Made by a program: the position numbers and the translations under genes. The notes under the pieces were generated by a model that worked only from the letters and a program-made list of their open reading frames with translations, was not told where the DNA came from and ran no database searches. From NCBI GenBank assembly GCA_027604185.1, contig JADGKB010000187.1, positions 1 through 18,621 of the forward strand: 18,621 nt of DNA, read 5' to 3'. Shown one piece after another: positions 1-15,840 of the stretch (position 1 is the stretch's first letter; every line of letters starts with the position of its first letter). Source of the DNA: Boothiomyces macroporosus (lineage: Eukaryota > Chytridiomycota > Chytridiomycetes > Rhizophydiales > Terramycetaceae).

Positions 1-1385
1 TTTTGCTGCGTAAACCCAGCAGCAGCAAAGTTGAAACCTGAAGTCGGAGGAGCAGCAGATATATTTGACACTTGTGAAGCTGTTTTATCAGATAATCCAC
101 CATTTACCGCTCCGCTTTTGGGAGTTTCACACGCTATGCATTTCACTGCTTCTTGTTTGTTTTCAACTAAACATGCATCACATTTCCATACATTACTTTT
201 GCTTGATACCATGAATGTTCTAGTATTGACATTACTTGATGTTTGCTTCAAATCAGTCCATGTAAACGACATGTCGGGAGTAACTGTCTCCCAAACTTTG
301 TGATTGATTAACCATTCAGGCAAATTAACTTGAGGATTAGACCACTTGAATTCCTAATGTCAACAAGTAAATACAGATTCGCTTGCTGGATTCATTTCCA
401 AATCTTTCTTTGATGAATCTTTCAATTTAAATGTATGTTGTGGTATCTCTATCTTTTTCGCAATCTTGCTTTCTTCTTTTGGCAATGCTACTGGTGCAGA
501 TTGAATTGGCTTTTCTGGTACTTGAATATCTGGTTTCTTGCCAAAATTGAACAGATCATTTGATGGCCTTGATGCTTCTTTTTCATCATCTCCAACAATG
601 AATTTTAAAATCTCTGCCGCTTTAGATTTGGGGGGTACAGTGGGTTGAACCAATACTGTTTTTCCAGGAGTAGCAGGAATTGATCTATTTGGTGAATTTG
701 ACACACTCTTAATTGGTGATTTTGCAGGCAAAGTTCCTCTAGAACTAGTTCCAACCCCACTATATTCTTTTGGTTTCTTACTAGGACTGATTTCAGGTAT
801 CTTTGCCAAGTATGGATTTGGTAATGGCTCCACATTTCCAAACAACAAATCAATTGGAGCCAAAGAATCCAGAATAATCCTTCCGGCCGCAGATTGAGGC
901 TTTGCAGGTTCTTTTTCTATTTGCTCCACTTTTGGACTTTTGTCTAGTTTTTGTCTTTTGATATCCACTCTTTGGTGAAGATCAATTACTGGGGCGGGTT
1001 TCTTCACATAAGAAAGATACTGAAATGGTTTCTTTGTGATTTTCACTTTAACGTTCTTTCTGATTTGCGTAGGTCTGGATGGTTTGCTAGTGAGCGTTGA
1101 TGGGTACGAAAACAACGGTCTTTTTAGTGATGGAGCAGGATTGACTGGCTGCCCGCTTTTTTCTTGGTTTGATTCCATTCCAGCTGTTTGATTCATTATG
1201 GCATTGACTGCTTGGACCGTTTTTTCTGTTAATTTGCCAGTCATCAATTCGTTGCAATACGAAATCTCTTCTGGGGAGAATATTCCCTTCTTGAATGATG
1301 TGAAGCGGACCAGTAATTCATTCGCGTTTACATTTCTGAGGATCGAAGAATTACTTGTCATTGAGATTATTTTTTGTTTTTTCAA
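1..1385 (-). CDS. FG-nucleoporin with RanBP2-type zinc finger, partial (runs off left end)
   Basis: The reading frame starts best at the ATG at 1361; a TTG at 1385 is in frame but a poor start. About 329 codons of a low-complexity, Ser/Pro/Lys-rich basic N-terminal region are followed by a 21-nt intron (354-374). Exon 2 (353-1) encodes a RanBP2-type zinc finger, with W-x-C-x2-C-x10-C-x2-C around WKCDACLVENKQEAVKCIAC, and then begins FG-type sequence (GFNFAAAGF) where the window ends. The order basic N-terminus, zinc finger, FG repeats resembles the Nup153/Nup1 group of nuclear-basket nucleoporins, which bind Ran and import receptors; a motif AGRIILDSLAPI may match the ILxxLE-type helix of that group (inference). 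The zinc finger and FG sequence are seen directly. The exact orthologue is uncertain, and the C-terminus lies outside the window. Confidence 0.75.
354..374 (-). other. 21-nt intron in nucleoporin gene
   Basis: On the minus strand this reads GTATTTACTT...TTGACATTAG. It lies between codons (phase 0) and carries an in-frame TGA. Removing it joins ...SES to EFKWSNPQ and opens the frame into the zinc-finger exon. The branch-like TGAC sits at positions 13-16, one base later than in the 19-20 nt introns of this window. Confidence 0.85.
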
Positions 1386-1475
1386 ATGTAAAGATTTCTA
1401 GCCCAACTTTAGCAAGATATCATGGACCCAGGGTTGGTACCTTATTAGCCAAACGCATTACATTTCAAGTTGAGA

Positions 1476-1534
1476 GTAGAAACTGGTTGTAGACCTTTCT
1501 ATGGTAGAAACAACTGGTTGTGGACCTTTCTAGG
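1476..1534. repeat. Imperfect tandem duplication, about 28-31 bp, two copies
   Basis: Copy one (1476-1503) and copy two (1504-1534) share GTAGAAAC, then TGGTTGT, one variable base, then GACCTTTCTA. Copy two has three extra bases (AAC) and single substitutions. A third GTAGAAAC occurs alone near 1680. Function unknown. Confidence 0.75.
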
Positions 1535-1788
1535 GAAAGACTTAGCAACTTTATACTTTTGAGCACTTGCAAGCTTCCAAGCCATATTGATTTACATTCA
1601 AATGTGGGACTGGAATCATACTAGTTTTTTCCACCTTTACTATTTATCCACAAAGTTTGTTGAGAGTATTAGCACGTCGGTAGAAACGAACTGAATCAAC
1701 TAAAATCCAAGCAACGATTCCGATTATTGCATTAGTGTTGATTTTATTGGTGGGGATGTTTGCAGGGATGGGATTTCTACCTTGGCGG

Positions 1789-1826
1789 ATGGCCCGAAAA
1801 ACTTCCCAATTCAGCATGGCCCGAAA
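1789..1826 (+). promoter_or_regulatory. Paired ATGGCCCGAAA elements upstream of hydrolase
   Basis: Two identical 11-mers, ATGGCCCGAAA, lie at 1789-1799 and 1816-1826, 27 bp apart and 80-118 bp before the hydrolase ATG. Exact duplication at this position suggests a transcription factor site; the factor is unknown. Confidence 0.45.
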
Positions 1827-1877
1827 TACCCATGAAGTCCCAGTTCAAAAAGTTTCCTTTTAAATTCGCATTAGATG

Positions 1878-1885
1878 CATAAATA
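1878..1885 (+). promoter_or_regulatory. TATA-like box of hydrolase gene
   Basis: CATAAATA lies about 28 bp upstream of the ATG at 1907, implying a very short 5' leader. This is by position and sequence only. Confidence 0.45.
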
Positions 1886-1906
1886 CTGACGCATTTTATC
1901 CTCAGT

Positions 1907-3496
1907 ATGCTTGGCCTACTATTATCCAGTGTTGCGGCAGCAGCAACTTACCTTGCTCCTCCTGATTCAAAATCTGGACCTGAAGCTGTTCTTGTCTTTA
2001 TCCAAGGTGCTCAGATTCCATCTACATCGTATATTGATACAGTTAAAGCTATTCAAGACGCCTCAAACTTTCCTATCCATGCAGTTCTCCCAGAGTTCTT
2101 CTTGGATCTTGCTCTGCCGATCCAGTCTTATTTGCACAAAGGAATCCAAGATGCCTTGAACTTGGCTCCGTCAGATTTGCCTGTTTACATTGTAGGTCAT
2201 TCGCTAGGAGCAGCAGCAGCTATGGAAGAAGCTACAGCTTACCCAGATCAATACAAGGCGTGTGTTATTTATGGTGCTTCAGTGAATAGAAAATATCAAT
2301 ACAACTTCCCAATGCCTGTTCTTGCGGTCAACGCTGAACTGGATGGTCTTCAAAGGGTTTCCAGAGTTGGAGAAGCATTTTTCAATTACTTTGACAGAAA
2401 TAATACACCAATTGATGCTGACAGTGTTTCGAGCCATCCAATCGTAATTATAAAAGGAATGTCTCATATTCAGTATGCTGATGGTGAAAGCGTTCCGATT
2501 ACTGTATCGCATCTTGACTTGAAGCCAGATATCAACATTGCTGAAGCTCACCAACAAACCGCTACTGTTACTTCACTCTTTCTGTGCCTTCAACAACAAA
2601 CTTGTTCCGATGCTACCGATTTGATTCAACTTGTACAAGATACCAGAGCATATCTTGACCCAATGCTGAAAGCGTTTGAAATGGAAGCTTCACCAAACCT
2701 CTACACCCCTTGTAATTCGGACAAACCGTCTCCACACTGCCCGTATTACCCTGCATGGCCATTACAACCCAACAGACAAATGTCACCAGATTCAAACTGT
2801 ATTTGCGGTGTGCCGTTTACCAATACTGCAGCTCATATAATGGCAGGCTTAGATGAAACCAAATATCCACTAATCAACGTTGACGCAATTCACGATGTTT
2901 CGGACACTAAACCGTATCACCACGCTCACATATGGTCAAATTGCACTACAGGTGCTTTACCCTGTTTAATGAATTCAACTACAGTCTCTCAGGTAATGTA
3001 CGAGGAAGATTCTTCGGATTCAGGGTTCCCTAGTGCCAGTGCTTATGAAATCAGAGTTAAAATGAAAGCCAGACAGATATACAAACTATTTTCTTCAGAC
3101 CCAAACGTACCCTTGGATTCAGTCGACCAAGGGAGTATTTGTGCTGATATCAATCAAGCATCTTACGACTGGGCTCTCAATGCAGCTTCAAAAGATGTTC
3201 AGGATAGATTTAATCAATACGGACAACCAATGGTTATGCAGCCAGATACTGCTCCAATCTTACCTATTGGACCGCTATTTATCAATTCAAAGCTAGGATT
3301 CAAGGACGCAAAAGTCAATGGCAAATGGGAATTGCAAGTGACATCAGTTGGATTTAAAACTCCTGAAGACTCTTTTGTCACGCACCTGTACCCAGACTCC
3401 AACGGATATCACTATTGCAAAGTATTGTCACCTGCTAGAGTTATGGAATGGATTCACACTGACGGGTTGAGAAAGAATAAGGGTATTTGGAACTAG
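1907..3496 (+). CDS. Secreted alpha/beta hydrolase with long unassigned C-terminal region
   Basis: A 529-residue intronless protein. The first 13 or so residues (MLGLLLSSVAAAA) look like a short signal peptide. Residues about 25-195 read as an alpha/beta hydrolase fold: nucleophile elbow GHSLG with Ser99, a likely acid at Asp146 in NAELDG, and a likely catalytic His187 in GMSHIQ. The fold resembles the esterase/lipase group but the substrate cannot be told. Residues 200-529 contain several cysteines (for example CLQQQTC, and CNSDKP...HCPYYPAW...NCICG) and potential N-glycosylation sites (WSNCT, MNSTT), consistent with an extracellular disulfide-bonded domain; I do not recognise this part. The ATG is preceded by a TATA-like box, and a perfect hairpin follows the stop codon. 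The next gene on the same strand is also a secreted enzyme. Confidence 0.75.
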   Translation: MLGLLLSSVAAAATYLAPPDSKSGPEAVLVFIQGAQIPSTSYIDTVKAIQDASNFPIHAVLPEFFLDLALPIQSYLHKGIQDALNLAPSDLPVYIVGHSLGAAAAMEEATAYPDQYKACVIYGASVNRKYQYNFPMPVLAVNAELDGLQRVSRVGEAFFNYFDRNNTPIDADSVSSHPIVIIKGMSHIQYADGESVPITVSHLDLKPDINIAEAHQQTATVTSLFLCLQQQTCSDATDLIQLVQDTRAYLDPMLKAFEMEASPNLYTPCNSDKPSPHCPYYPAWPLQPNRQMSPDSNCICGVPFTNTAAHIMAGLDETKYPLINVDAIHDVSDTKPYHHAHIWSNCTTGALPCLMNSTTVSQVMYEEDSSDSGFPSASAYEIRVKMKARQIYKLFSSDPNVPLDSVDQGSICADINQASYDWALNAASKDVQDRFNQYGQPMVMQPDTAPILPIGPLFINSKLGFKDAKVNGKWELQVTSVGFKTPEDSFVTHLYPDSNGYHYCKVLSPARVMEWIHTDGLRKNKGIWN

Positions 3497-3497
3497 T

Positions 3498-3518
3498 TTC
3501 AATATAATTGATATTGAA
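3498..3518 (+). repeat. Perfect inverted repeat just after hydrolase stop codon
   Basis: TTCAATAT, a 5-base loop (AATTG), then ATATTGAA, beginning two bases after the stop codon. It may act in 3'-end formation or mRNA stability, or be chance in AT-rich DNA. Confidence 0.5.
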
Positions 3519-3771
3519 TTTTGTGTCATTGTTTTTAAGATCCTTGTGCTGCATGGCGTCACATAATCTGCGGTCAGGTATCGGGTAATTTCGGCATTAA
3601 TTGGCAACTGATCGATTCCTTGAGGGCACTGGAAATAGACCCTCACCTAAACAAGAATCAAATTAATGCATTGAAGCAGTTGGGTATATTATCGAATGGC
3701 TGGAAAAGCCTTAATTGCGACTGGATTGAATTTTTGTGCCCATTGAAAAGCATTCATGTCGTGCTATGTGA

Positions 3772-3812
3772 TTGACACAGACTGCACGCGATATCGATAA
3801 CCCTTTGACACA
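3772..3812 (+). promoter_or_regulatory. Paired TTGACACA elements upstream of sedolisin
   Basis: Identical octamers TTGACACA occur at 3772-3779 and 3805-3812, 33 bp apart, just upstream of the TATA box. Between them lies GATATCGATA, partly palindromic. A candidate upstream activating region; the binding factor is unknown. Confidence 0.4.
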
Positions 3813-3817
3813 AGCTG

Positions 3818-3825
3818 TATATAAT
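3818..3825 (+). promoter_or_regulatory. TATA box of sedolisin gene
   Basis: TATATAAT begins 34 bp before the ATG at 3852, a strong match to a TATA element and implying a very short 5' leader. Confidence 0.6.
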
Positions 3826-3851
3826 CCAATAGACTAGATTTATTCCTATCA

Positions 3852-5555
3852 ATGAAGATATCAACTATTACACTTTTAGTGGCTTATGCAACTGCCATGC
3901 CAAATCCATCTTCCAACTCCTTTCTCATCAAGGACTCTATTGCTGTGCCTTCAGGGTGGGTTCAAGGGAATGCACCAGTTGACTTGGAACAAACTGTGGA
4001 CTTTGGGTTTGGATTGACGCAATCAAACATGGATTTATTGGTGGCCAAGTTGTATGAAGTGTCTGATCCTTCCCACCCAAATTACGGGAAACACTTGTCC
4101 AAAGAGCAGGTTGATGCTCTTACTGCTCCTTTACCAGAGACTGTCAAAGCAGTTACTGATTGGCTGGCAGAAAATGGTGTCACGGAATCTGACATCAACT
4201 TCAACTCTGGAAAGGACTGGTTACATGTCAAACTGCCGCTTTCAAAAGCCCAACAGCTTCTTCAAGCTAATTACCAATCCTTCACGCATCCAGAGTCTGG
4301 AAAGACAGTCATCAGAACTACAAAATACTCTCTCCCACAAAAAGTACACTCTCACATAGACTTGATCAAGCCAACCACACTGTTTGGTGCTAGACCTAAA
4401 CAGCTTACTACCAGGCCAGGCAAAGTTCACTCAAAGAGAGATGCTTCATCCGACTGTGCCAATGGCGTCACTCCTACTTGTCTAAAATCATTATACAATG
4501 TGGGTACTTACAAACCAACCAACCAAAATAACGTTATCGGTGTTACAGCTTACGGTGGCCAATACGCATCAACTTCAGACTTGCAACAATTTACAAAAAG
4601 CTTTGCATCATCAGCTAGAAATGCAAAATTCACATTTGTCTCAATCAATGGTGGTCAAAATGTTGATGATCCATCACAAGGTGGTGTAGAAGCAGAATTG
4701 GATATTGAAACTACTGTCGGGTTAACTTGGCCAACCAAGAATTTATTCTACTCTACTGGTGATGGTGATAATTCTATCCAGTATTTCCATCAACCTGATG
4801 ATTGGGCGCTAGCACTGATAGACAAACCAAATTCTGAATTACCTCAAGTAGTTTCTACTTCATATGGAGATGATGAACCAAACTTTCCTGCTGATTTTGC
4901 CGTTAGAGCTTGTAATGACTTTGCAAAACTTGGTGCTAGGGGTATTTCTTTGATTTTTGCTTCTGGTGATGGTGGTGTAAATGGTGGTCACGGCCAATCT
5001 CAATGCCAAGACGCAAATGGAAATACAGTCTTTGTTCCTGTCTTTCCGGCTACTTGTCCTTACATTACTTCTGTTGGCGCAACTACAAGTGTTCCAGAAA
5101 CTGCAGCTCAACTATCTTCAGGTGGATTCAGCAACTATTTCACTCGTCCATCTTATCAAGACAGCGCTGTTGACTCTTACTTGAACTTTTTGGGTTCTAC
5201 ATATCAAGGATACTACAATTCCTCTGGTCGTGCTTTCCCTGATGTTTCTGCACAAGGCCAAAACTACCAAATTGTTAGCGGAGGTCAAGTTCAAGGCGTT
5301 GATGGCACTTCATGCTCTTCACCTGCATTCGCATCAATCATTTCTTTGATCAATGACAACTTGCTGAACAAGGGGAAAAGTGCCTTGGGATTCTTGAACC
5401 CATGGTTGTACTCCAAGGGCTACCAGGGCCTTAACGATGTAACATCAGGCAACAATCCTGGCTGTAATCTCGATGGGTTCTCTGCTACTCAAGGGTACGA
5501 TCCAGTAACTGGTCTTGGAACGCCAGATTTCAAGAAATTGTTGGACCTGGTCTAA
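3852..5555 (+). CDS. Secreted sedolisin (tripeptidyl-peptidase/serine-carboxyl peptidase, family S53)
   Basis: A 567-residue intronless preproprotein, the usual length for fungal sedolisins. A short signal peptide (residues 1 to about 16) precedes a pro-kumamolisin prodomain (about 32-175). A dibasic KR at 195-196 is a likely Kex2-type maturation site. The catalytic domain shows Glu280 and Asp284 in GGVEAELDIET, oxyanion Asp373 in SGDGG, and nucleophile Ser487 in GTSCSSP. The C-terminal calcium site is present: Asp529 in LNDV and the GYDPVTGLGTPD motif. All catalytic and metal residues are intact, so it should be an active acid peptidase exported to digest protein outside the cell; tripeptidyl- versus endo-peptidase activity cannot be decided. 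It has its own TATA box and ends 5 bp from the stop of the convergent DHFR gene. Confidence 0.95.
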   Translation: MKISTITLLVAYATAMPNPSSNSFLIKDSIAVPSGWVQGNAPVDLEQTVDFGFGLTQSNMDLLVAKLYEVSDPSHPNYGKHLSKEQVDALTAPLPETVKAVTDWLAENGVTESDINFNSGKDWLHVKLPLSKAQQLLQANYQSFTHPESGKTVIRTTKYSLPQKVHSHIDLIKPTTLFGARPKQLTTRPGKVHSKRDASSDCANGVTPTCLKSLYNVGTYKPTNQNNVIGVTAYGGQYASTSDLQQFTKSFASSARNAKFTFVSINGGQNVDDPSQGGVEAELDIETTVGLTWPTKNLFYSTGDGDNSIQYFHQPDDWALALIDKPNSELPQVVSTSYGDDEPNFPADFAVRACNDFAKLGARGISLIFASGDGGVNGGHGQSQCQDANGNTVFVPVFPATCPYITSVGATTSVPETAAQLSSGGFSNYFTRPSYQDSAVDSYLNFLGSTYQGYYNSSGRAFPDVSAQGQNYQIVSGGQVQGVDGTSCSSPAFASIISLINDNLLNKGKSALGFLNPWLYSKGYQGLNDVTSGNNPGCNLDGFSATQGYDPVTGLGTPDFKKLLDLV

Positions 5556-5560
5556 CTTTA

Positions 5561-6079
5561 TTACAATAAATGCTTCTTTAGAACTTGGAATTCATATTCT
5601 ACTTGTCCTTGCTTTTGCAATTCGCTTTTTTCCACTAGTTTGAAGTATTCTGGTAATTCCAAGAACGTATCGCATTCAAATTCAGTAAAGATTCTTGTAA
5701 GGTAAAAGGTATCAATATAATCGTAAAACAGCTCATAAATCATTTTTCCACCGATAACAAATACATCCTGATAATCTATTTTCTCGAGTTCTTGAAATAC
5801 TTGATTGACCGAATTGCAGTAAATTACAGATTCATCCTTTATGTTCTGCCTGGTCAATACAATATTAATGCGATCTGCTAGCGGTCTGAATTTCTTTGGG
5901 ATGGAATCAAAAGTCTTTTTCCCCATAATAACAACATTTGGTTTCTGTGTTTTTGAAATTGTCGTGTTTTTGAAAAACTCCATGTCTTTGGACAACCGCC
6001 ATGGGAGTGCGTTTTTATTTCCGATGCCGTGATTGGTGGTTGCTGCTACGATTGCTTTGAAATTGTATTTTCTCGTCAT
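5561..6079 (-). CDS. DFR1: Dihydrofolate reductase
   Basis: A 172-residue, intronless, stand-alone DHFR that reduces dihydrofolate to tetrahydrofolate with NADPH. Visible family features: AIVAATTNHGIGNKNALPW near the N-terminus (GIG and LPW), the active-site acid Glu34 in LSKDMEFFK, the NADPH-binding VIMGKKTFDSIP (50-61), and VIGGKMIYEL (108-117). The protein ends in the usual FxVLKK-like strand. It is not fused to thymidylate synthase, which fits an opisthokont rather than a plant or alveolate. It lies downstream of uS11m on the same strand, 122 bp away, and its upstream region carries two telomere-like TAGGGTTA sequences. Its stop is 5 bp from the convergent sedolisin stop. Confidence 0.95.
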   Translation of the reverse strand: MTRKYNFKAIVAATTNHGIGNKNALPWRLSKDMEFFKNTTISKTQKPNVVIMGKKTFDSIPKKFRPLADRINIVLTRQNIKDESVIYCNSVNQVFQELEKIDYQDVFVIGGKMIYELFYDYIDTFYLTRIFTEFECDTFLELPEYFKLVEKSELQKQGQVEYEFQVLKKHLL

Positions 6080-6135
6080 TCTGATTTAAGAGTTGAAATT
6101 TTTCAGAAACAATTCGTGAATGTAAAGATCAGCGA

Positions 6136-6182
6136 TTAGGGTTAGAAATGGAATAAAAATGAAGGATTAGCGGGTAGGGTTA
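6136..6182. promoter_or_regulatory. Two telobox-like sequences upstream of DHFR
   Basis: TTAGGGTTAG at 6136-6145 and TAGGGTTA at 6175-6182 lie 57-103 bp before the DHFR start. In fungi, telobox sequences in promoters of growth and ribosomal genes are bound by Tbf1-type factors (established knowledge); that it applies here is inference. Confidence 0.4.
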
Positions 6183-6201
6183 TAATAATATGAATAAACA
6201 A

Positions 6202-6721
6202 TTATATTCTTCTCTTCTTTTTTGGTCTGCAACCGCCATGTCTGATTGGAGTAACATCAACCAGTCTGTTGATTTTCCACTCATTCGCAACAATGGCACG
6301 GTATGCTTGATCTCTTCCTGGTCCGAAACCTTTAAATCTAATACACACACCTTGGGTCTTTATATTGCCAACCTTTTCCTGTGCTTTTTCAATCATTGAT
6401 AAACAGGCTTGGTACCCAGCGTCACTGGTTCCTCTATTCGCTTTCTTTAATCCAACAGTTCCCGCCGATGCCCAGCAAATAGCTTTGCCTACATTACCAA
6501 CAATTACCTTGCTTGTCAAACAGAAAACACAGAGTATTATTCCTGTTGGCTGTAATCGAAACAGTGAATGAATTGGTTGGTTGCACTATTCTCTTTGGGG
6601 TAATGAAATTAAATGCGAGTCTGTCCTTGGTTGTATTAATCGCTGCGTGGAATGCATCCGTGTAACTTGGTTTAGGAATATTGTCGATTATGGACGAAAA
6701 TGCTCTCTGAAAGATTCTCAT
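6202..6721 (-). CDS. uS11m: Mitochondrial small-subunit ribosomal protein uS11m
   Basis: Two exons (6721-6508 and 6488-6202) give a 166-residue protein. The N-terminus (MRIFQRAFSSIID) is a plausible mitochondrial targeting sequence. The uS11 core is clear: NRNNTLCFLFDKQG, then KAICWASAGTVG, then RFKGFGPGRDQAYRAI, ending in DVTPIRHGGCRPKKKRR, the diagnostic tail that contacts 16S-type rRNA. Read without splicing, the frame stops at NCW and the second half lacks a start. Removing 19 nt (6489-6507) restores exactly 13 residues between NNT and WASAG, the spacing in bacterial S11. The gene shares strand with DHFR downstream and diverges from the SET-domain gene. Confidence 0.93.
6489..6507 (-). 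other. 19-nt intron in uS11m gene
   Basis: Minus-strand sequence GTAATTGTTGGTAATGTAG, phase 1 within codon GGC. TAA is at positions 12-14. Removal restores the uS11 family spacing exactly; retention gives a stop four codons later. Confidence 0.93.
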
Positions 6722-7101
6722 TCCTGTAAAAAAATTTTTGAAATTTCACTTTTTTAAGTTGAATTATTCTGCGTACACCCTGTCAATATAAATCATCTGG
6801 ATAGGAGTATTTCAGAGATTATAATTTATTGTATTAGAAGGTGGTATTTCCTTGGAGAATTTAACCATTGAGAGTATAGCGGTAATTTCGATCAATGCGA
6901 GAACAAAGACAATAATTTCGCGTTGGATTTTCACATGGAAAAAACTTTAGTTTCTCATTTCATCTTATGTCTATTTTTTGTGGAGAGTTTAACCGCTGCT
7001 CAGCCATTATTTAACCACCCATTCTAATTGCTCAGCTGGGTTATCGCCGCAAAATAAATCCCGCGTGGGGTGATGAAAAGAAATATCTTTTTTTCTCTAA
7101 T
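6722..7101. other. Intergenic region between divergent uS11m and SET genes
   Basis: No coding sequence was recognised. It has a near-exact direct repeat, GGAGAATTTAACC at 6854-6866 and GGAGAGTTTAACC at 6982-6994, and a T-rich tract directly before the SET ATG. Presumably a bidirectional promoter. Confidence 0.5.
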
Positions 7102-7600
7102 ATGACTCAAGTAGCTGAAACCTATCAACCGCCATTCACTGACAAATCAGTCTATCCTTCTGATATCGAAATTATCATCAACCAAAACTACACTTCAAAA
7201 GCCGTGATAAAAAAGCAAGTAAAGAAAGGGTAAGCGTTTCTAATCTAGTGATTTGATTTTGTATATCACTGGTACTACAAAGTCAAAGAAGAGATGGACA
7301 TCTGTACAGGTCGGTGTTGATGAGCATGTTGAATTGAATAGCGAATTGGTCTACATGAATCATTCATGCGACCCATCTGTAATTTTAGACACTTCAAAAA
7401 TGTGTCTCATTGCCAACAAGGATTTGAATGTTGGTGATGAAGTCACGTTCTTTTACCCAAGTACAGAGTATGAAATGGACCAGCCTTTCCAATGCTGGTG
7501 CGGGTCTAAAAGCTGTGTTGGGTTGGTAAACGGTGCCAAAGGCGGTTTAAAAGAAGGATACTTTTACAACAAGCATATCCTTGAGTTGGTTAAGCAATAA
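7102..7600 (+). CDS. Small SET-domain protein lysine methyltransferase
   Basis: Two exons (7102-7229 and 7249-7600) give 159 residues, essentially one SET domain plus a post-SET motif. Residues about 24-50 fit the N-terminal SET strands (KQVKKGDLILYI). YMNHSCDPS (about 78-86) is the NHxCxP pseudoknot motif that binds S-adenosylmethionine, and GDEVTFFYPSTE (105-116) is the second knot segment. The post-SET cysteines Cys125, Cys127 and Cys132 in CWCGSKSC should bind zinc with the knot cysteine. There are no other domains, as in compact SET proteins of fungi and bacteria, so the substrate (histone or other protein) is unknown. The ATG at 7102 follows a T-rich leader. Without splicing the first exon stops at the intron's own TAA. 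Confidence 0.88.
7230..7248 (+). other. 19-nt intron in SET-domain gene
   Basis: GTAAGCGTTTCTAATCTAG, phase 2, splitting codon GG|T. It has a CTAAT branch-like motif with TAA at 12-14. Removal joins KQVKK to GDLILYITG in frame; retention gives an immediate TAA. Confidence 0.95.
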
Positions 7601-8503
7601 AGTGTTGTTTAATCGTGAATTTGATAATTGTACTATTAGATGTGTTTATATTGAGTGAGTCTTTGTAAATATATTTCCTATCATGTTCAAAAGTAAAATA
7701 TTATACTCATCTAGGAAATTATTCTGGCTCACAGGAAAAGCTGCACTAAGCGAAAGCAAGCGCATTGACAACTGCAGCAATTGGTAAATAGTAAACGAAT
7801 CCAAATTCTTTCATGACGCTTTTATTTCCTGATCGTAGTGCCCATAACACACATTCAGATTCCTTTCAATCACAAGAGATTCCGTATATAGATGCAAAAA
7901 GGAAAGAGAAAGGTGGTCAACTGATATTTTGCCTATTTGGGATGGCTTTCGTGGAAATAACCGTCAAAGAGCTTACCTCAGTATCCAAATTGAAGCAAGG
8001 CCCAAGTGTCTAAAAGTTAAAAGGAAAATTCAAATTACATGGTTTTATCACTCGGTCAGCCCGCCATTCTACTCGCAACATTCAGAACACTTTTTTCATC
8101 ATTTCTTGCTTCCCAAACCCTATTGACTTTCTTTATGATTGAATCAAATGCTTTTGGTGGCGTTACATCTGAACTTCTATGGTCAGGCAAAGAGATAAGA
8201 CTTTAAACTCTTTATTAATAGATTCTGGTAGCATTTGGTTATCCTAGCATAGTGAAAAGATCACATTGGTAGGCCGAGCTAGTCGTACTGCAAAACTAGG
8301 TTCAGCTGTGTTTATTGTGGTATAATTATCCAGTAAGCTCGCTTTATTTAATACAGAATAAGCTGAGTCGGATTATATAATTTTTATGGTCGATTCTTTA
8401 TCGTGAATAGTAGAGTATCGATTTACCAACAACTATCGCTTTTTGCTTTCAGGTTTGCCGAATTCGAATAAAAAGGACCCTGAAATGACTGAACAATTTG
8501 TAA
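7601..8503. other. About 900-bp region without a recognised gene
   Basis: Short open frames exist (for example 7813-8126) but none has recognisable protein features, conserved motifs or plausible splice joins. An intron-like GTAAGC...TTTAATACAG of 24 nt occurs at 8333-8356 and could be a 5'-leader intron of the next gene. No tRNA was seen. This is long for a window with such tight gene spacing. Confidence 0.5.
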
Positions 8504-9418
8504 ATGTCTCGTTCATTCTTAGGCAACTGGTCACCTAATCATCTTGAAATAGAAGGAAGGAAAATCGCTATCAGCGATTGCTTTCATGTATCCCTCGAAA
8601 AAAACATGTTCTGGGCTACATGGGAAAAACAAGAATATGTTACTTGTCTGAAAGCAAACTACTTGTTTATTTACCTTCGCTTACAACCAGTATTCTACCA
8701 TCTACTGTGCAAGAAGGACATTTACATTGAAGGAAAAAAGCTCACAGGCAAACTCAAAACGTGTATTTCCAAACAGCCTGGCTATAGAGTCGAACAAGTA
8801 ATTGACTCAAATAGACGGTCGTTTACCAAAGACCCAGAAGATTTGATCTTTGATAAAGATACGCTCAACCCAAAGAAAGTGGCAATCCACAAACTGAAAG
8901 CAGATGAACTATGTGTCAAGCACAAGAGGATAAAGTTGGGAATTAGAGACAGAAAAATCAACCTTATAAACTTGACTGTAACTCTGTATGCTGAAACCGA
9001 CGAAGGATTTGTTCAAATTGGCGAATGGACTTCAAACACAGTCAGTGTACGATTCGGCAACTGTTCTGAACACGCTGATATACATTCCATACCTGCAAGA
9101 GAAAGAGAACGATCCTATTGCGCGCAATTGTACAAGGAGATCTTGGCTTTCCAAAAGATACCATCTGCTGATTTGAAGTTTTTGAATGACATTCCCCAAT
9201 TGCCTAGTCCTGTCTTGCGATTTACTAAAAGCGCATTTGACGAACCGCAAATCAGAGCGGATTTTTGTGGATCTTCAACTGACAGTCTGTTCAGCCCGGT
9301 TATTGGATTCCCAATGCAAAGCCCTTTTGCAGCATTCAACCGTGATCTACAAGCCCAATATTTTAGCTTTTGCTCTACTCCAAATTTTACATACCAACCT
9401 TATTCATTATTTCAATAA
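8504..9418 (+). CDS. NDT80/PhoG-like DNA-binding protein with divergent RGRSP motif
   Basis: A 304-residue intronless protein. Residues about 20-195 resemble the NDT80 Ig-like DNA-binding fold: MFWATWEKQEYVTCLKANYL matches the opening W-x-x-Y/C-x-R-x-N-Y-F region, and INLTVTLYAETDEGFVQIG followed by EWTSNTVSVR matches the strand pair before the RGRSP loop. Family members (Ndt80, Vib1/XprG, MYRF) are transcription factors for meiosis, nutrient or stress control. The usual RGRSPxHY reads RFGNCSEHAD here, so key DNA-contact residues differ. The C-terminus is Phe/Pro/Ser/Gln-rich and could be an activation region. A TAA lies immediately before the ATG, fixing the start. The next gene begins 57 bp after the stop. 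The family assignment is from pattern only. Confidence 0.6.
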   Translation: MSRSFLGNWSPNHLEIEGRKIAISDCFHVSLEKNMFWATWEKQEYVTCLKANYLFIYLRLQPVFYHLLCKKDIYIEGKKLTGKLKTCISKQPGYRVEQVIDSNRRSFTKDPEDLIFDKDTLNPKKVAIHKLKADELCVKHKRIKLGIRDRKINLINLTVTLYAETDEGFVQIGEWTSNTVSVRFGNCSEHADIHSIPARERERSYCAQLYKEILAFQKIPSADLKFLNDIPQLPSPVLRFTKSAFDEPQIRADFCGSSTDSLFSPVIGFPMQSPFAAFNRDLQAQYFSFCSTPNFTYQPYSLFQ

Positions 9419-9474
9419 ATTCACTTGTATCGTTGAGCCATCGTTAACTTGTCCGAAAAAAAAGATAATCGAAA

Positions 9475-10998
9475 ATGGAGCAAATTCGAAAGCGGCCCAG
9501 AATCGAATTGACAGACTTGAATCAGCAGGAAATTAAGGATATCGAGTCAATCAGAGATATACTCTTGCAAGAAGGAGTGAACGATGATTTGTTGTCGTTT
9601 GATACCAGTAACCAAGCTGAGAAACCAGTCATCACATATCCGAATAATGGAAATAATTTGTTTAACGAACACCAAAATGAAGTTGAATTGGATGACTATG
9701 AAGATTTCAACATTGATGAGCAAACATGGAACGAATTGCAAGAGCAAGCGACTCAGAAACTGAAAGAAATGGATCAAGAGCTGAAATTCAATGCATCAAA
9801 TGTAAATACTGTACCGCAAAACACAGCGGCGTACATTACACCCACTCCTACTTTTAAACCACCACCAGTGATGAACAGCCAACTGATTTTCCCGTTAGCA
9901 TCGCAGAGAGAAGACCCAAAGATCAAGGAGCTGGAATCAGCATTGCTTGAAAAACAAGGGGAAATCACATTTGCAAGAAACAAAATATTGAAACTTACAG
10001 AACTGAATAACGAGTTAATCAAAAAAACCAGTGTTAAGGAAGATTCGGCTCACAAGAATGAAATAGAACGACTTAAAATGGAACTGGAATTCATGAAGCA
10101 AGAAATTAAAACTCTGAGAGAAAAACGGATCCAGCCAAGAAGAGAAAAGATGGAACCTCTCGCAAGTCAAAGCCAGAATATTCCCAGTTTTGTTCCTAAA
10201 TCAAAATTCACCCAACCAAAGAAATTGCTGGACGATTTTGATATGAATATGTACAGAGCAAAGAGTATGAAAAAGATTGAACCAGTCCAAGATCAACTAG
10301 ATTTGATGGATGTCGACATTATTCCTGCAGAGCCTTCTTCATATATAAAGCAATCACAGGTAGAAAAAGAGGTTGAAACAAAATCAGTAGAAACGAATAC
10401 ATTCAAGATGATTGAAATTAACATGGAAAAGGAACTGGTTCTGGTGCTCTCTCAGTACCTATCATTTACGGAACTAGACGCCTTCTTTTGCTCAGATATC
10501 GCTGAATTTTTAAATCAACATCAGTATATTGTTGAAATAGCAATGATATTGATTGAATTTCAAGATTACAAACTTCCATCAGACCTGATACCTCAACTAT
10601 ACAACTCGAAATCGACTCAATTGTACAGATTGTTGGTTCTGTTGATTCAAGATGGAAATGAAATTGATGTTACTAAACTTGAGCCTGATTACAATAACCC
10701 TGAATATATACGGTTGCTTCATTTGGCTGTAGTAACACGAAATATCCCAATTGATTTGCAGTCATTGGATAATATCGCTTTAACTCATGAGCTGATAGGG
10801 TTATACTGTACTCTAAGACAATGTAAAAGAGTGTACCAAGTGATTGATTACTACAAGGAAACAAAGGACAGCACAGTGTTTTACTTGCTCCATGTAATCT
10901 ACCACGAAAAAGAAATTCTCGATTTCAAAGAGTTCTGCATGGTAAAAGTATTCCTTGAAGAATACGATACGGAAAAACAATGGCCCATATTTGAATAA
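9475..10998 (+). CDS. rad26: ATRIP/Rad26/Ddc2-like DNA-damage checkpoint protein
   Basis: A 507-residue intronless protein. Order of features: a basic start (MEQIRKRPR); an acidic motif DDYEDFNIDEQTWNEL (about 73-88) like the N-terminal RPA70-binding segment of ATRIP; a coiled coil at about 148-218 (KELESALLEKQGEITFARNK and MELEFMKQEIKTLREKR), typical of ATRIP dimerisation; a linker; and a helical C-terminal half that would bind the ATR/Rad3/Mec1 kinase. In the family the protein brings ATR to RPA-coated single-stranded DNA to start the S/G2 checkpoint. Length is shorter than human ATRIP (791) but close to fungal forms. The call rests on architecture and the coiled-coil motif, as these proteins diverge fast; another coiled-coil nuclear protein remains possible. 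It ends 15 bp before a possible convergent ORF. Confidence 0.65.
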   Translation: MEQIRKRPRIELTDLNQQEIKDIESIRDILLQEGVNDDLLSFDTSNQAEKPVITYPNNGNNLFNEHQNEVELDDYEDFNIDEQTWNELQEQATQKLKEMDQELKFNASNVNTVPQNTAAYITPTPTFKPPPVMNSQLIFPLASQREDPKIKELESALLEKQGEITFARNKILKLTELNNELIKKTSVKEDSAHKNEIERLKMELEFMKQEIKTLREKRIQPRREKMEPLASQSQNIPSFVPKSKFTQPKKLLDDFDMNMYRAKSMKKIEPVQDQLDLMDVDIIPAEPSSYIKQSQVEKEVETKSVETNTFKMIEINMEKELVLVLSQYLSFTELDAFFCSDIAEFLNQHQYIVEIAMILIEFQDYKLPSDLIPQLYNSKSTQLYRLLVLLIQDGNEIDVTKLEPDYNNPEYIRLLHLAVVTRNIPIDLQSLDNIALTHELIGLYCTLRQCKRVYQVIDYYKETKDSTVFYLLHVIYHEKEILDFKEFCMVKVFLEEYDTEKQWPIFE

Positions 10999-11013
10999 AC
11001 TGTCGATAAAAAA

Positions 11014-11220
11014 TCAATAGAAAAGAGCAACGATCCTCTTTAACATGAGCTTTTACCTTTACTCTTCCCCAGTTTTTCCCAGTCATCGAATTCATTGATT
11101 TAGAATAGACAACTTCTACTATAAAGGGGTTGCGCAATCGTAAAGCATTGAGCGGCGGTATTCCATAGCGCAGCCCAATGCCTTGTGCTCGCTTGTTGAG
11201 CAACTTGCTCCTGGATGACT
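11014..11220 (-). CDS. Possible small protein, unrecognised; start codon not found
   Basis: A minus-strand frame beginning after an in-frame TAG near 11221 reads SSRSKLLNKRAQGIGLRYG, continues IPPLNALRLRNPFIVEVVYS, then MTGKNWGRV. The basic, folded-looking composition suggests a small (perhaps mitochondrial) protein. Read straight through, the frame runs into the 3' end of the ATRIP-like gene. Removing a 19-nt GTAAAA...TTAAAG segment (11038-11056) ends it at KRIVALFY and a stop at 11014, just short of that gene. Against it: no upstream ATG in frame (only TTG, or an internal ATG at MNSMTG), and the proposed intron lacks TAA at positions 12-14. I do not recognise a family. Confidence 0.3.
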
Positions 11221-11293
11221 AGAAAAAAAAAGTAGAAATTAGGTGTGGCAAAACAGACGTAAAATGTAAACAAGAAACTATTTCTATTGTTTA

Positions 11294-12354
11294 ATGAACA
11301 CTACGAAAATAAATATCGTGCCAAGCTCGCCGGTTAATAGCCGCCCTCAGAGCAACAAGAACAGCCGAACAAACAGCCGCCAAACCAGTCGCGCCAATAT
11401 TGCACAGAAACCACCAAAAATCAAATTCAACCTGGATAATATAAAGGAGCGAAAAGAGTTTGAACCTCATTTTTACAAGATCCAAGAATCACAAAGGCTT
11501 GATAATCGATTAGTAAATTGGTACCACAAAGATGTAACTGCTACTGTTGGCACTTATGATCCGTATCCTCCAACTTGGGAAAAAACAGAAAAGAAGAGTA
11601 GCTGGGGAAAAAAGAGTGAGAGATTTGCAGATAAATCCAATCAAATTGCACTTGGGCCTGGGTCATACCCGCATACTGATTTATATACCCCAAAACCTGT
11701 TGCCAGTTCATTTAAAAGTAAAACTATCCGGTTTAAACCACCACCTTCAAACCAAATATCACCCGCGTCGTACAATGTAAGTAGGATTAATATAGCTGGA
11801 CAGTGTTCATTCAGTGCACACTTGGAGACCGTGGATAGAAACACTATCTTCGCGTCTAGGAAGAATGCTAGATCCACCAAGAATAAAGAAACTATCCGGA
11901 ACAGAATCACAAATCTTGCAAGAACTCTCAAATACAGTGGTATGTAAGCCAGCATTTGTAGAAACAAAAAACAGAATAGTACTAATTGTTAATCTAGAAT
12001 AACGAGTTGCATAAAAAACAAAACCATCTTAGTATCAAGCAAGATAATATATTGTACTTGGGATTAATCATAGGTCGAAGACTACGCTTAATCCGTACAA
12101 TCCGATATACCTTGTTCATTCGGTGAATACTAATCTACCGACATTGCTACCGCCAAACGAAGAAGCAAGATGTAATTATTGTTAATGTAGCAAGTAGGAT
12201 GGATATGAGTGCTAGCAAACACGATTTAAGAGCACCTTCTAAAACACCATCAAAAGCACCATCAAGGGTACAGTCACCAAGAAATAGCGCAAACCAAGAA
12301 AAAGAACAAAGCCCAATTGAAATCATAATCGCACCAGAAACAGTCAACATTTAA
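11294..12354 (+). CDS. Sperm-tail PG-rich repeat (STPGR/SHIPPO-like) protein, five exons
   Basis: Exons 11294-11939, 11962-11978, 11998-12053, 12074-12171 and 12191-12354 total 981 nt, or 326 residues. The N-terminus is Ser/Asn/Arg-rich. Three short PG-type motifs follow: GTYDPY (86-91), GPGSYPHTDLY (121-131) and SPASYNV (156-162), the pattern of sperm-tail PG-rich repeats found in proteins associated with flagellar or cytoplasmic microtubules. The spliced C-terminus is basic and Ser/Pro-rich (SKTPSKAPSRVQSPRNS). Unspliced, the frame stops at 11947 after 217 residues. Each of four downstream introns of 22, 19, 20 and 19 nt restores an open frame, and the frame closes at a stop 4 bp from the COQ8 stop. 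The motif presence suggests a flagellated stage in the life cycle (inference). Confidence 0.72.
11940..11961 (+). other. 22-nt intron 1 in PG-rich repeat gene
   Basis: Begins GTATGTAAGCC and ends ATTTGTAG, phase 1. It lacks TAA at 12-14, so it is the least certain intron. An 18-nt alternative using GTAAGCC puts the following exons out of frame, giving a stop. The 22-nt form keeps all downstream exons open. Confidence 0.65.
11962..11978 (+). other. 17-nt microexon in PG-rich repeat gene
   Basis: An exon of 17 nt that encodes about six residues (ETKNRI with flanks), between introns of 22 and 19 nt, so it is shorter than either neighbour. Confidence 0.6.
11979..11997 (+). other. 19-nt intron 2 in PG-rich repeat gene
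   Basis: GTACTAATTGTTAATCTAG, phase 0, with TAA at positions 12-14 and the same TTAATCTAG end as the second CBS intron. Confidence 0.8.
12054..12073 (+). other. 20-nt intron 3 in PG-rich repeat gene
   Basis: GTACTTGGGATTAATCATAG, phase 2, TAA at positions 12-14. Confidence 0.8.
12172..12190 (+). other. 19-nt intron 4 in PG-rich repeat gene
   Basis: GTAATTATTGTTAATGTAG, phase 1, TAA at positions 12-14, and almost identical to the uS11m intron. Downstream is the last exon, which starts in the middle of a codon. Confidence 0.8.
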
Positions 12355-12358
12355 TTCA

Positions 12359-13883
12359 TTAAAATTTATAAGCCTTGTATCTCGTTTCAAATTCTTTTGC
12401 GCAATTAATACGCGATTTAAGTTTCCCGCATAGCAAGAAACATCCAGATAGCTTTCTATGCAGAGAGTAAGTTTCGTCTGGTGGCGGTGTTAATCGTTCT
12501 CTAAGCATTGTTGGAATATCACTTCGTACTTTTTCAGTTAGTTCGCTAGATTTCCCAAAATCATAAAATGGAGAGTCTGTTTTGTGGAACGGTAGTGCAA
12601 GTGTAAACAAAGAGTTTACGTGTGCAAAAGTCATTTGCTGGGTTAGTATATCTTACTTGACTTTCTAGCCCAGTGAGGAACCCCAACTCTATAGAGTGCT
12701 GGATAGCTTTTTCTCTATCCTGATCTGCACCAGCTTTTAATAGTTTTAAATATGTATCAGTGAATGACTTTGGAAAGTCTCTTGCAGCCCCAAAATCCAA
12801 CAACTCAATCTTTTTGGTTTTTTCATTGTACAAGAAATTTGACCAGTTTGGGTCTGTTTGCATGAATCTGAATTCAAATAATTCCATTAAACACAGTTTC
12901 AACAGGCTAGAGCCAAGCTATTGTTAATATAACGTACATAATCTCTATCCATCTGAGACAAGTTTGTTACGGTGTCTATTGGCTTGCCGTATACAAATTC
13001 AGTTACCAAGACTTTTTCGGTTGATAGTTCAGTGTATACTTTGGGTACATGGAACACTCTATCCAAGTTTTCCATTTTGATTAATTCACGAAATCGGTCA
13101 ATTGATGCAGCTTCTCTTAAATAATCACATTCCATCTTTAGTTCATTTCTGGCTACACGAACTGTATTGTCCAAGTACAATCCTTTAGGTAACAGTTGCC
13201 CAAGCGAAAGCAACATGACGAGATTATCCAAATCAGAATCAATAGATTCAACTACTCCCGGATACTGAATTTTAACCGCCACAGTTTCTCCAGTCTTCAA
13301 TTTTGCTTTGTGAACTTGTCCAATTGATGCTGCAGCAATAGGTATCTTTTCAAAGTGCTCGTAGTCCTTCATCCAGTCACTCCCCAATTCCTTATTCAAC
13401 ACTCCCTAAATTAATTGGAAATACATCCAGTTGCCATTCAGGCATGAAATCCGCACTGTTCTGCACTCTTCGCATAATGGTATGAACTTCTTCTGGGATC
13501 ATTTTTGAATCTTGGATACTCAGCATTTGCCCAATCTTTAATGCAGCTCCCCTCATTTTGATTAGTTTCTGTACTATCCGTTCCACGTTAGCTGGTGAGA
13601 ATATCGAATTGCCAGATGACAGTCCAACCGACTGCTTTAACTTGTCTGATATTATTCCACCTGTGATTCCAATCCCCAGCGAAGTGAATTCATATATTCT
13701 CCCTAATCTGGTAGACGGTATTTTCGACGGTTTCATTTCTACTTTTGGTTGGTGAATTGGGTTAGGGTCTGGTATGGGATTAGTGTATGTCTTTGGAATG
13801 GTTTTATAAATAGGATATTTCTTTGGTTTGAGTATTTTTGACGCTCCCAGCAGCATGGCTACAAAGTCAACGCTTGAAACCAT
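12359..13883 (-). CDS. COQ8: COQ8/ABC1/ADCK family atypical kinase of ubiquinone biosynthesis
   Basis: Four exons (13883-13425, 13405-12938, 12917-12657, 12637-12359) give 488 residues, normal for the family. COQ8 is a mitochondrial atypical kinase/ATPase that supports the coenzyme Q biosynthetic complex. Visible motifs: [16 protein letters not shown] (about 57-72); the KxGQ motif in [10 protein letters not shown] (KIGQ at 117-120) that covers the active site; the Ala-rich loop AAAS (177-180) replacing the Gly-rich loop; the nucleotide-binding lysine in VAVKIQYPG (Lys198); the catalytic-loop region [13 protein letters not shown]; the metal-binding DFG in [10 protein letters not shown]; and the C-terminal [17 protein letters not shown]. 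All hallmarks are intact, so the broken frames are introns, not decay. It starts only 44 bp after the CBS stop, on the same strand. Confidence 0.96.
12638..12656 (-). other. 19-nt intron 3 in COQ8
   Basis: Minus-strand GTAAGATATACTAACCCAG, phase 0, containing the canonical fungal branch sequence TACTAAC. Removal joins GLESQ to [10 protein letters not shown]. Confidence 0.95.
12918..12937 (-). other. 20-nt intron 2 in COQ8
   Basis: Minus-strand GTACGTTATATTAACAATAG, phase 0, TAA at 12-14. Removal joins MDRDY to [18 protein letters not shown], the conserved COQ8 segment. Confidence 0.95.
13406..13424 (-). other. 19-nt intron 1 in COQ8
   Basis: Minus-strand GTATTTCCAATTAATTTAG, phase 0, TAA at 12-14. 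Removal joins PEWQLD to GVLNKELG, matching the family (usually xVLxxELG). Confidence 0.95.
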
Positions 13884-13927
13884 TTTTCTGATTGAAGTGG
13901 AAAAAATAAATAGAATAAAAAAGTGAT

Positions 13928-15427
13928 TTATTTGAGCTTGCTGGTCAAGAATGAAAGCAAATCGACTTTGGTAACGACAGACACAATCAATAATTCATTC
14001 AACGGAGATCTCTTTGTAACAACAGCGCTACTGTGGTTTTCAAAGAACTTTGTCATTTGGTCTAGCGGAGTATCGACAGTGATTTCTTTGAATTTCTTTT
14101 CCAGTTTGAATTGGTACATTGCGGAATCGCAAGAGTCGGTTAGTTTGCATCTGCCAGCTCCAATCTTTGCTAATAACCCACCAAGAGTAACTAGACCAAT
14201 GCAGTGTTTAGAGTCTGAAGCAGAAGTGACTGGAAGCTGGTCGAATCCGTTAGATTTCATGATTTCAATCGCGTTTTTGATTGAAATAGCTGCAGGAACC
14301 GTAATAGCCTGTGGCAAGTTCAAATCCTTGGATTAAAATAAAGTACTTTGATAGTAGCGCCTTCCCATTGACTCTTTCTTTCTGCTTCTTCCTTTAAAGT
14401 CTTTTCATCGCTAAAGCCCATCTTTTTCATCCATCCGTCGTTCAAGAATTTAGTCATGTAGTTTCTAACTGAATCTGGAAGTAATACAACAGCTCTTTGA
14501 CCTTTCTTTAACATCTTGGCGGCCTTCAAAGCACCAACCATGGCAGTACCAGATGATCCACCACACAACAAGCCTTCTTCTTTAATTAATCTACGAGCCA
14601 TCAAGAAAGATTCCTTGTCGTTGGTTTTGACCCATTCATCAACATAGGATCTGTTTAATACATCAGGAACGAAATCATAACCGATACCTTCAACCTAGAT
14701 TAAAGATGTTTACTTGATAGGAATGAACACCTTCATGATTGAGTGAATCTGGAAGAGCCAAAATAGAGCCAAAAGGATCAACACCAACAATCTTGACAGT
14801 TGGAATCAATTCCTTTAATCTTTTACCAATACCAGCAATGGTACCACCAGTACCAACACCAGCAATAAACATGTCAATTTTACCGTCGCACTGCGCATAT
14901 ATTTCTTCAGCAGTTCCATGGTAGTGAGCGTCAGGGTTATTGATATTCGAGTATTGATCAGGAATCCATGAATTGTCGATTTCTTTGTTTAATCTCTTGG
15001 CAACTCCGATATGAGAGTCTGGAGAGTCCCAAGCAGCTTCGGTTGGAGTACGGATAATTTCAGCACCCAAGGCTTTCAATACATCTACTTTTTCTTGCGA
15101 CATTTTTTCAGGTAGAGTGATAATTGCTCTGTATCCTTTGACTGCGGCAGCTAATGCCAAGCCAATACCAGTGTTACCGGAAGTAGGTTCAATGATTGTA
15201 GCTCCAGGCTTCAAGATACCGTCTTTTTCACCGTACTCTACCATTCTCTTTCCGATTCTATCTTTTACAGAACCACCGCTGTTAAAGAACTCGCATTTGG
15301 CAACAATCTCGCATTCTATTCCCTCTTCCTTTCCGATGCGGTTGATTCTGACCATTGGCGTTCCTCCGATATGTTCGAGAATGTTTGGTAATATCTTGTT
15401 TCCTTCCACTACTTTTTGTGCAGACAT
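13928..15427 (-). CDS. CYS4: Cystathionine beta-synthase (PLP enzyme with C-terminal CBS domains)
   Basis: Three exons (15427-14714, 14694-14347, 14326-13928) give 486 residues from the ATG at 15427, close to the yeast enzyme. It condenses serine and homocysteine to cystathionine (transsulfuration). Seen: the PLP lysine Lys55 in NSGGSVKDR; the substrate loop PTSGNTG (81-87); the phosphate-binding [19 protein letters not shown]; and a C-terminal pair of CBS motifs ([20 protein letters not shown] and [12 protein letters not shown]) for regulation. There is no N-terminal heme-binding Cys/His segment, as in yeast. An in-frame ATG at 15502 would add 25 residues; I prefer 15427 because it follows an A-rich leader and gives the usual family N-terminus. 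A 36-bp tandem repeat lies 185 bp upstream. Confidence 0.96.
14327..14346 (-). other. 20-nt intron 2 in CBS gene
   Basis: Minus-strand GTACTTTATTTTAATCCAAG, phase 0, TAA at 12-14. Removal joins EGATIK to [10 protein letters not shown], linking the catalytic core to the CBS domain pair. Confidence 0.93.
14695..14713 (-). other. 19-nt intron 1 in CBS gene
   Basis: Minus-strand GTAAACATCTTTAATCTAG, phase 0, TAA at 12-14. Removal joins GVHSYQ to [13 protein letters not shown], conserved in all CBS enzymes. Confidence 0.96.
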
Positions 15428-15840
15428 TTTTCTTTTTTTTGAAAGTGCAGGTATGCCACAACCCAACCAAATACGGATGGTCAAGTGATGATTTTCGATC
15501 ATTAATTAAAAATCATTTTGCTGCAGGTGAGCCTATTCTTTAGATTTTCCTCTTTGATGCTCGGGCAGTATCGTGATAGTGATTGGTGTAATTAGAGCTA
15601 GTACTGCATAGATAGCACCGCATCGATAGTTGGTATCTCATCCTCACATAGCACCGCATCGATAGTTGGTATCTCATCCTCACATAGTACCGCATAGATA
15701 GTACTGCATCCACAATCAGATATGAGTGTAAGCGAAACCGCTAAACCAATTCAAAGACAATTATATGGAAAAACAAACTATTAATGGGTATTAAAATCTA
15801 TTAGATAGTTAATATACAATTAAAGAAAAAAAAACAAAAA
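15428..15840. other. Intergenic region between CBS and decapping cofactor genes
   Basis: No coding sequence was recognised beyond the optional N-terminal extension of CBS (to 15502). It holds the 36-bp tandem repeats and an A-rich tract next to the 3' end of the decapping cofactor gene. Confidence 0.6.
15612..15711. repeat. 36-bp tandem repeat, two full copies and a partial third
   Basis: Identical units start at 15612 and 15648 (period exactly 36): ATAGCACCGCATCGATAG, then TTGGTATCTCATCCTCAC. A third partial unit starts at 15684 (ATAGTACCGCATAGATAG). Flanking TAGTACTGCATAG at about 15600 and 15699 looks like further decayed copies. Each full copy carries palindromic ATCGAT. It lies upstream of CBS; it could be a regulatory array or a minisatellite. 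Confidence 0.9.

Follow-up and report, generated by a model that had tools for sequence, protein, structure and literature searches.

Twelve introns of 19-21 nucleotides in six genes

The stretch of DNA analysed here (the window, 18,621 nucleotides (nt) in length) is contig C187 of the chytrid Boothiomyces macroporosus (Chytridiomycota, Rhizophydiales, Terramycetaceae), whose assembly comprises 15,203,306 bases in 216 contigs, and we place within it twelve introns of only 19-21 nt, distributed over genes for a RanBP-zinc-finger protein, mitochondrial uS11 (uS11m), a small SET-domain protein, a SHIPPO-like protein, COQ8 and CBS. A previous sequence-only reading of the window had likewise proposed twelve introns in six genes of a fungus-like genome, with outer ends at 354 and 14713; we arrive at the same number and the same ends, and the source is a true fungus. 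Its tally of lengths stands for the three introns of 20 nt and the one of 21 nt, but we count eight rather than seven introns of 19 nt, and the 22-nt intron that it listed is unsupported.

Homology backs ten of the twelve joins, namely two in CBS, three in COQ8, four in the SHIPPO-like gene and one in uS11m. When intron 1 (19 nt, 14695-14713, GTAAACATCTTTAATCTAG) and intron 2 (20 nt, 14327-14346, GTACTTTATTTTAATCCAAG) are removed from CBS (15426-13928, minus strand), the product aligns gap-free with seven relatives, and identity to the spliced protein is 97% in Boothiomyces sp. JEL0866, 88% in Globomyces pollinis-pini, 86% in Kappamyces and 79% in Batrachochytrium dendrobatidis. COQ8 (13883-12359, minus strand) is interrupted by intron 1 (19 nt, 13406-13424, GTATTTCCAATTAATTTAG), intron 2 (20 nt, 12918-12937, GTACGTTATATTAACAATAG) and intron 3 (19 nt, 12638-12656, GTAAGATATACTAACCCAG), the first and third of which are backed by gap-free alignment, and the spliced product is identical to the deposited B. 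macroporosus protein at 488 of 488 residues, including at all three joins. These joins are also continuous in relatives, bar one deposited model, that of JEL0866 (P0122), which is missing 11 residues immediately before the join of intron 2; judging from the sequence, this gap suggests a mis-modelled tiny intron. In the gene for uS11m (6721-6202, minus strand) a single Pfam S11 match (residues 54-165) runs across the join left by a 19-nt intron (6489-6507, GTAATTGTTGGTAATGTAG).

The four introns of the gene at 11294-12354 (plus strand), a gene which we take to belong to the SHIPPO family and for which Pfam gave no match, are supported by a combination of deposited proteins. Joins 1 and 3 are backed by Globomyces: the frame that follows intron 1 (19 nt, 11777-11795, GTAAGTAGGATTAATATAG) matches its protein, and across the join of intron 3 (20 nt, 12054-12073, GTACTTGGGATTAATCATAG) the residues ILSKTTLNPYNPIYLVHSV match Globomyces DLSKVALNPYNQMYLVHSI. 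At joins 2 and 4 each side is backed by a different deposited protein. The residues preceding intron 2 (19 nt, 11979-11997, GTACTAATTGTTAATCTAG), VETKNRI, match IETKNRM of JEL0866 and the exon after it matches the deposited B. macroporosus model, and conversely the exon before intron 4 (19 nt, 12172-12190, GTAATTATTGTTAATGTAG) matches the deposited model, from which this intron is absent, and the C-terminus after it matches JEL0866.

For the remaining two joins support comes from frame restoration and from intron signals, with a recognised domain downstream of each. These are the 21-nt intron at 354-374 (minus strand, GTATTTACTTGTTGACATTAG) in the RanBP-zinc-finger protein gene, which runs from 1361 down to the window start and is cut by the contig end, and the 19-nt intron at 7230-7248 (plus strand, GTAAGCGTTTCTAATCTAG) in the SET-domain gene (7102-7600), where the RanBP zinc finger and the SET match, respectively, lie downstream. 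A 22-nt GT..AG candidate at 7261-7282 of the SET gene was rejected, since in combination with the 19-nt intron it breaks the frame. Scored with a signal model derived from contig C1 (see below), all twelve introns reach 6.5-10.1 bits, with 6.6 for 354-374 and 10.1 for SHIPPO-like intron 4, and the 5-95% range of the modelled C1 introns themselves is 4.5-9.8. Moreover, a gene finder likewise trained on C1 found ten of the twelve unaided, including those in uS11m and the SET gene, and missed 354-374 and 12918-12937.

A genome-wide peak of intron length

Additional support comes from outside the window. We scanned C1:1-200000 by reading frame only, collecting segments whose excision joins two open frames that would otherwise close nearby. 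With flanks of 40 codons, GT..AG segments numbered 43, 84, 58 and 26 at 19, 20, 21 and 22 nt, compared with 17-38, 11-35, 12-45 and 13-32 for nine other dinucleotide pairs, and with flanks of 80 codons the counts were 26 vs 1-9 at 20 nt, 21 vs 0-5 at 21 nt and 10 vs 0-6 at 22 nt. Among the ten pairs an excess at 19-21 nt was seen in GT..AG only; the other pairs gave isolated outliers elsewhere in the scan (e.g. 76 for AT..AG at 27 nt) and none at 19-22 nt. An initial scan by codon usage, which was underpowered, gave no signal (10 GT..AG candidates above threshold, with 7-16 for eight decoy pairs).

We then turned to a spliced-gene model with a flat length prior from 16 to 300 nt. Training and counting both used the same 200 kb of C1; independent checks came from the window, from loci L024-L028 and L030-L033, and from counts made by signal only. 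The model yielded 130 genes with 192 introns, 163 of which fell at 19-22 nt (36, 75, 38 and 14 at the four successive lengths, hereafter tiny introns), with none at 16-18 nt and 29 elsewhere, and ten decoy pairs run through the same model placed 0-4 introns in the 19-22 nt band and 14-132 outside it. We did not accept the 29 longer modelled introns as a class, given that most of them hold a possible tiny intron and that decoys produce 14-132 of the kind, although a few may be real. The picture is one of an ultra-short band under a flat prior, probably accompanied by a minority of longer introns. For each kb of modelled coding sequence there are 1.11 tiny introns, and 78 of the 130 genes contain them. 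When four of the C1 proteins were compared with Pfam, 6 of their 21 joins lay within the displayed best domain stretch (three in a V-ATPase subunit, two in an FtsH-like protease and one in an SH3 protein).

Counts that rely on signals point in the same direction. A fixed 20-nt pattern, GTA N8 YTAAY N YAG, occurs 1,781 times genome-wide against 106 when reversed, and a version with TACTAAC 31 times against 2. When the same signal pieces were placed at 37 different spacings over 200 kb, the spacings for 19 and 20 nt had 43 and 26 matches, respectively, and the remaining 35 had 0-4 each, and among the first 100 listed matches to a variable-gap pattern, whose lengths are what we use of it, 67 were 19-22 nt out of 34 possible lengths. 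The fixed pattern is matched by 23 of the 163 modelled tiny introns, so that a rough genome total of (1781-106) x 163/23, or ~11,900, is obtained, or ~12,400 by length scaling; we therefore work with an approximate ~12,000. On this scale the earlier proposal of pervasive ultra-short spliceosomal introns appears well founded, as far as DNA can tell.

Some matches to the same intron or protein recur at a constant offset or in two contigs: C49:3542-3652 with C100:5137-5247, about 269.7-307.7 kb with 312.3-350.3 kb in C2, about 193.6-198.6 with 215.2-220.2 kb in C3, about 74.2 with 119.3 kb in C20, and about 16.5 with 18.9 kb in C1. These recurring segments represent either segmental duplications or haplotypes that the assembly left uncollapsed, and the genome-wide pattern counts are slightly inflated by them.

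Tiny introns consist of little more than splicing signals

We fitted a model by expectation-maximisation (EM) to GT..AG candidates 14-30 nt long. Its starting point was a weak T.A preference for the branch site, enrichment of A at position +3 and a lean towards pyrimidines at position -3, and it converged on YTAAY just before YAG and on lengths of 19-22 nt. In the 163 tiny introns position +3 is A in 96% and position -3 is T or C in 93%, and position +5 is G in 14% only. The model puts the branch A at nt 14-15 in 147 of the 163 and, in 159, at a distance of 5-6 nt from the final G. Information content is 6.2 bits over the first six positions of the donor and 6.1 bits at the branch site, and AT content is 70.5% compared with 61.4% for the C1 stretch. 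The modelled internal exons (n=105) have a median of 216 nt. Tiny introns are thus little more than their signals: GTA, a YTAAY branch site and YAG.

These regularities bear on whether the segments are introns at all, since sequencing or assembly errors, or genes in decay, could make frame breaks that mimic tiny introns wherever a GT and an AG are conveniently placed. The assembly is in 216 contigs with some repeated segments, which leaves some room for such errors. Errors or decay would however not favour GT..AG, nor a single length band, nor a branch motif at a fixed distance, and they would not restore conserved protein in CBS, COQ8 and others, so that we regard this explanation as extremely improbable.

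Components of the splicing machinery

A search for small nuclear RNAs (snRNAs), covering U1, U2 and U6, found one U6, two U2 and one U1 locus, in which ACAGAGA, GUAGUA and ACUUACCUG are all intact. The two U2 genes (L022 on C80 and L023 on C178) have diverged from each other, and both carry the canonical branch-site element. Among the proteins, genes for Prp18 and Slu7 are present; in yeast both are reportedly dispensable at branch-to-3' splice site distances this short. A predicted 20-nt intron in Slu7 falls where the profile match to this protein has a gap (positions by arithmetic), and a second prediction there, of 21 nt, is a stop-free multiple of three and was not used as evidence. The best U2AF65-like match contains four stops, and in the gene model this gene is interrupted by four introns, each 19-20 nt long. 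Isy1 is present, with a profile match from position 4 on and its first exon not placed. As far as these factors go, the presence of Prp18, Slu7, Cwc25, Isy1 and the U2AF65-like protein speaks against a reduced spliceosome.

A second alternative takes the segments for DNA-level elements that are removed by other means than RNA splicing, such as the programmed DNA elimination of ciliates, or are passed over by translational bypassing. Nothing positive was found in its support, and it owes what room it has to the evidence being drawn from DNA only. The segments bear oriented signals resembling those read by U1/U6, by U2 and at the 3' splice site, on the coding strand, and the matching snRNAs and splicing factors are encoded in the genome; we consequently give such elements hardly any credence.

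Taken together, the GT/AG ends, the branch site complementary to U2 GUAGUA, the restored proteins and the encoded RNAs and factors of the major spliceosome suggest, with high confidence on our part, that these are U2-type (major) spliceosomal introns, cut nearly to their recognition signals and kept at 19-22 nt genome-wide. Several points weigh against this. Introns were placed from DNA alone. At 22 nt with 40-codon flanks, GT..AG does not rise above the other pairs in the frame scan (26 vs 13-32), and with 29 of the 192 modelled introns outside 19-22 nt the uniformity is incomplete. The total for the variable-gap pattern runs the wrong way, falling under its reversed control (1,488 vs 2,401). 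The U1 match lies 0.7 bits below the Rfam cut-off, and the U2AF65-like match, at 230.7 bits, is below the model cut-off of 310.3. Finally, Isy1 (L033, C39) contains a likely intron of 46 nt with a full GTAAGT donor and a CTAAT branch site, which may keep an ancestral donor consensus lost by the tiny introns.

Granting that the introns are real, the active site of the spliceosome might be specially altered, as proposed for the ciliate Stentor, in which, according to the accessible part of the report (PMC9505925), the GGG plug of Cwc25 is lost and the N-terminus of ISY1 is non-conserved. The unplaced N-terminus of Isy1 leaves room for a change of this kind, and a RED_N profile gave no match, which is uninformative. 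Cwc25, on the other hand, starts with MGGGDLNLKKSWHP and has its GGG plug intact, so the plug loss of the Stentor type is not seen here; Prp18 and Slu7 are kept, and the recognition elements of U1, U2 and U6 are canonical. A specially altered active site therefore strikes us as unlikely. We think it rather probable, with less assurance than we attach to the introns themselves, that a conventional and unreduced fungal spliceosome removes ~12,000 introns with a spacing of 13-14 nt from the 5' splice site to the branch A.

How a conventional spliceosome might handle 20 nt

The geometry of the introns is read from the DNA, and from it we infer how splicing might proceed. U1 would pair mainly with GTA(A), because the G at +5 has been lost, and U2 with YTAAY, its second A bulged. 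U6 would then take over from U1 at the 5' splice site, branching would close a loop of 14-15 nt, and the 3' splice site would be the first YAG, 5-6 nt past the branch site. For human splicing, the accessible part of PMC6692369 puts the minimum at about 50 nt and the RNA that links the two helices of the B complex at about 21 nt, and the 13-14 nt spacing between 5' splice site and branch A seen here is about a quarter of that ~50-nt minimum. With this spacing the U1 and U2 small nuclear ribonucleoproteins (snRNPs) should clash; no space is left for a polypyrimidine tract, and both snRNPs would hardly fit one intron together. Assembly would probably go through first contacts across the exon, or through an early hand-over from U1 to U6. 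Adding up a donor of six nt, a branch core of five, an acceptor of three and the shortest spacers gives ~19-20 nt, which would be the length floor, and the narrow band probably reflects this steric floor from below and a deletion bias from above.

If this is correct, minimal introns would be possible in an unreduced genome, with an unreduced spliceosome and with the Cwc25 plug still in place, and assembly would have to keep U1 and U2 from occupying the intron at once. B. macroporosus could then reveal the smallest intron that a normal spliceosome is able to remove, and two questions become testable: the least RNA that a conventional spliceosome can use, and how U1 and U2 share an intron of 20 nt.

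Relation to known short introns

At 19-22 nt the introns of B. macroporosus would rank with the smallest known. Comparably short introns are known from other lineages, and the comparisons that follow draw on the accessible parts of the papers cited. The nucleomorph and the heterotrich ciliates, which the sequence-only reading had named as comparators, have introns of 18-21 and 15-16 nt, in agreement with PMC10245619, which adds the mikrocytids with 16-17 nt. Stentor coeruleus resembles B. macroporosus in having thousands of AT-rich GT-AG introns in a very narrow band, with GTA strongest at the 5' end, a branch A ~5 nt away from the 3' end, snRNAs of canonical type and no genome reduction (PMC9505925). 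It differs in that its introns are 15-16 nt with the branch A at nt 10-11, lack a strong branch-site consensus, and are removed by a spliceosome missing the Cwc25 plug (PMC9505925), whereas here, in a fungus, they are 19-22 nt with the branch A at nt 14-15, YTAAY is clear and the plug is present. The chlorarachniophyte (Bigelowiella) nucleomorph has a nearly equal length range (18-21 nt), but is the remnant nucleus of an endosymbiont and has undergone extreme genome reduction (PMC10245619), unlike the fungal genome of 15.2 Mb here. Mikrocytids also have a very narrow length band and conserved intron sequence, but these parasites have 224 predicted introns, of 16-17 nt, and a spliceosome highly reduced, to 17-19 proteins (PMC10245619), compared with an estimated ~12,000 introns and the retention of Prp18, Slu7 and Cwc25 here.

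Trichomonas, too, has short introns with fused 3' signals, of which those of 23 nt were called among the shortest known, but they number a few dozen in two classes (PMC12316389), and those of B. macroporosus are both genome-wide and shorter. Cryptococcus neoformans is likewise a fungus rich in introns, which are short and served by a full, functional spliceosome, but there ultra-short means <60 nt, with an average of 56 nt (PMC11913375), rather than 19-22 nt. A survey of 644 fungal genomes (PMC8476143) makes no mention of such introns in its accessible part, and we found no report of chytrid introns of this size in the open-licence literature, represented mostly by titles and abstracts, which does not show their absence from print. 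The kind of intron is known, and what appears to be new is its setting, that is, a fungus with an apparently conventional spliceosome and ~12,000 such introns. Considering that in papers of 2025 introns of 23 nt are still among the shortest known (PMC12316389) and fungal introns of <60 nt are ultra-short (PMC11913375), a chytrid with introns of 19-22 nt throughout its genome brings the phenomenon into the fungi. With Batrachochytrium and other relatives sequenced, one could date the shrinkage and, over a short evolutionary distance, compare changes in the spliceosome.

Public annotation of the window genes

Public annotation holds some tiny introns and misses others. The deposited B. macroporosus model of COQ8 includes all three, but that of the SHIPPO-like gene (P0241) is short of seven residues at intron 2, the result to be expected if 40 nt were spliced out from 11958 onwards, and reads on into intron 4, where it terminates; both missing stretches have equivalents in the JEL0866 protein. 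Thus of the two B. macroporosus models that we compared residue by residue one is right and one has both a dropped stretch and a missed intron, and the deposited proteins of the clade may carry many such errors.

Other features of the window

A 207-nt intron predicted by the gene finder at 16308 is doubtful, and we take it for a model error. Upstream of CBS a short tandem repeat with a unit of ~36 bases was spotted by eye at 15600-15690, and at 17861-18621 an open reading frame, truncated at the contig end, encodes a probable secreted protein.

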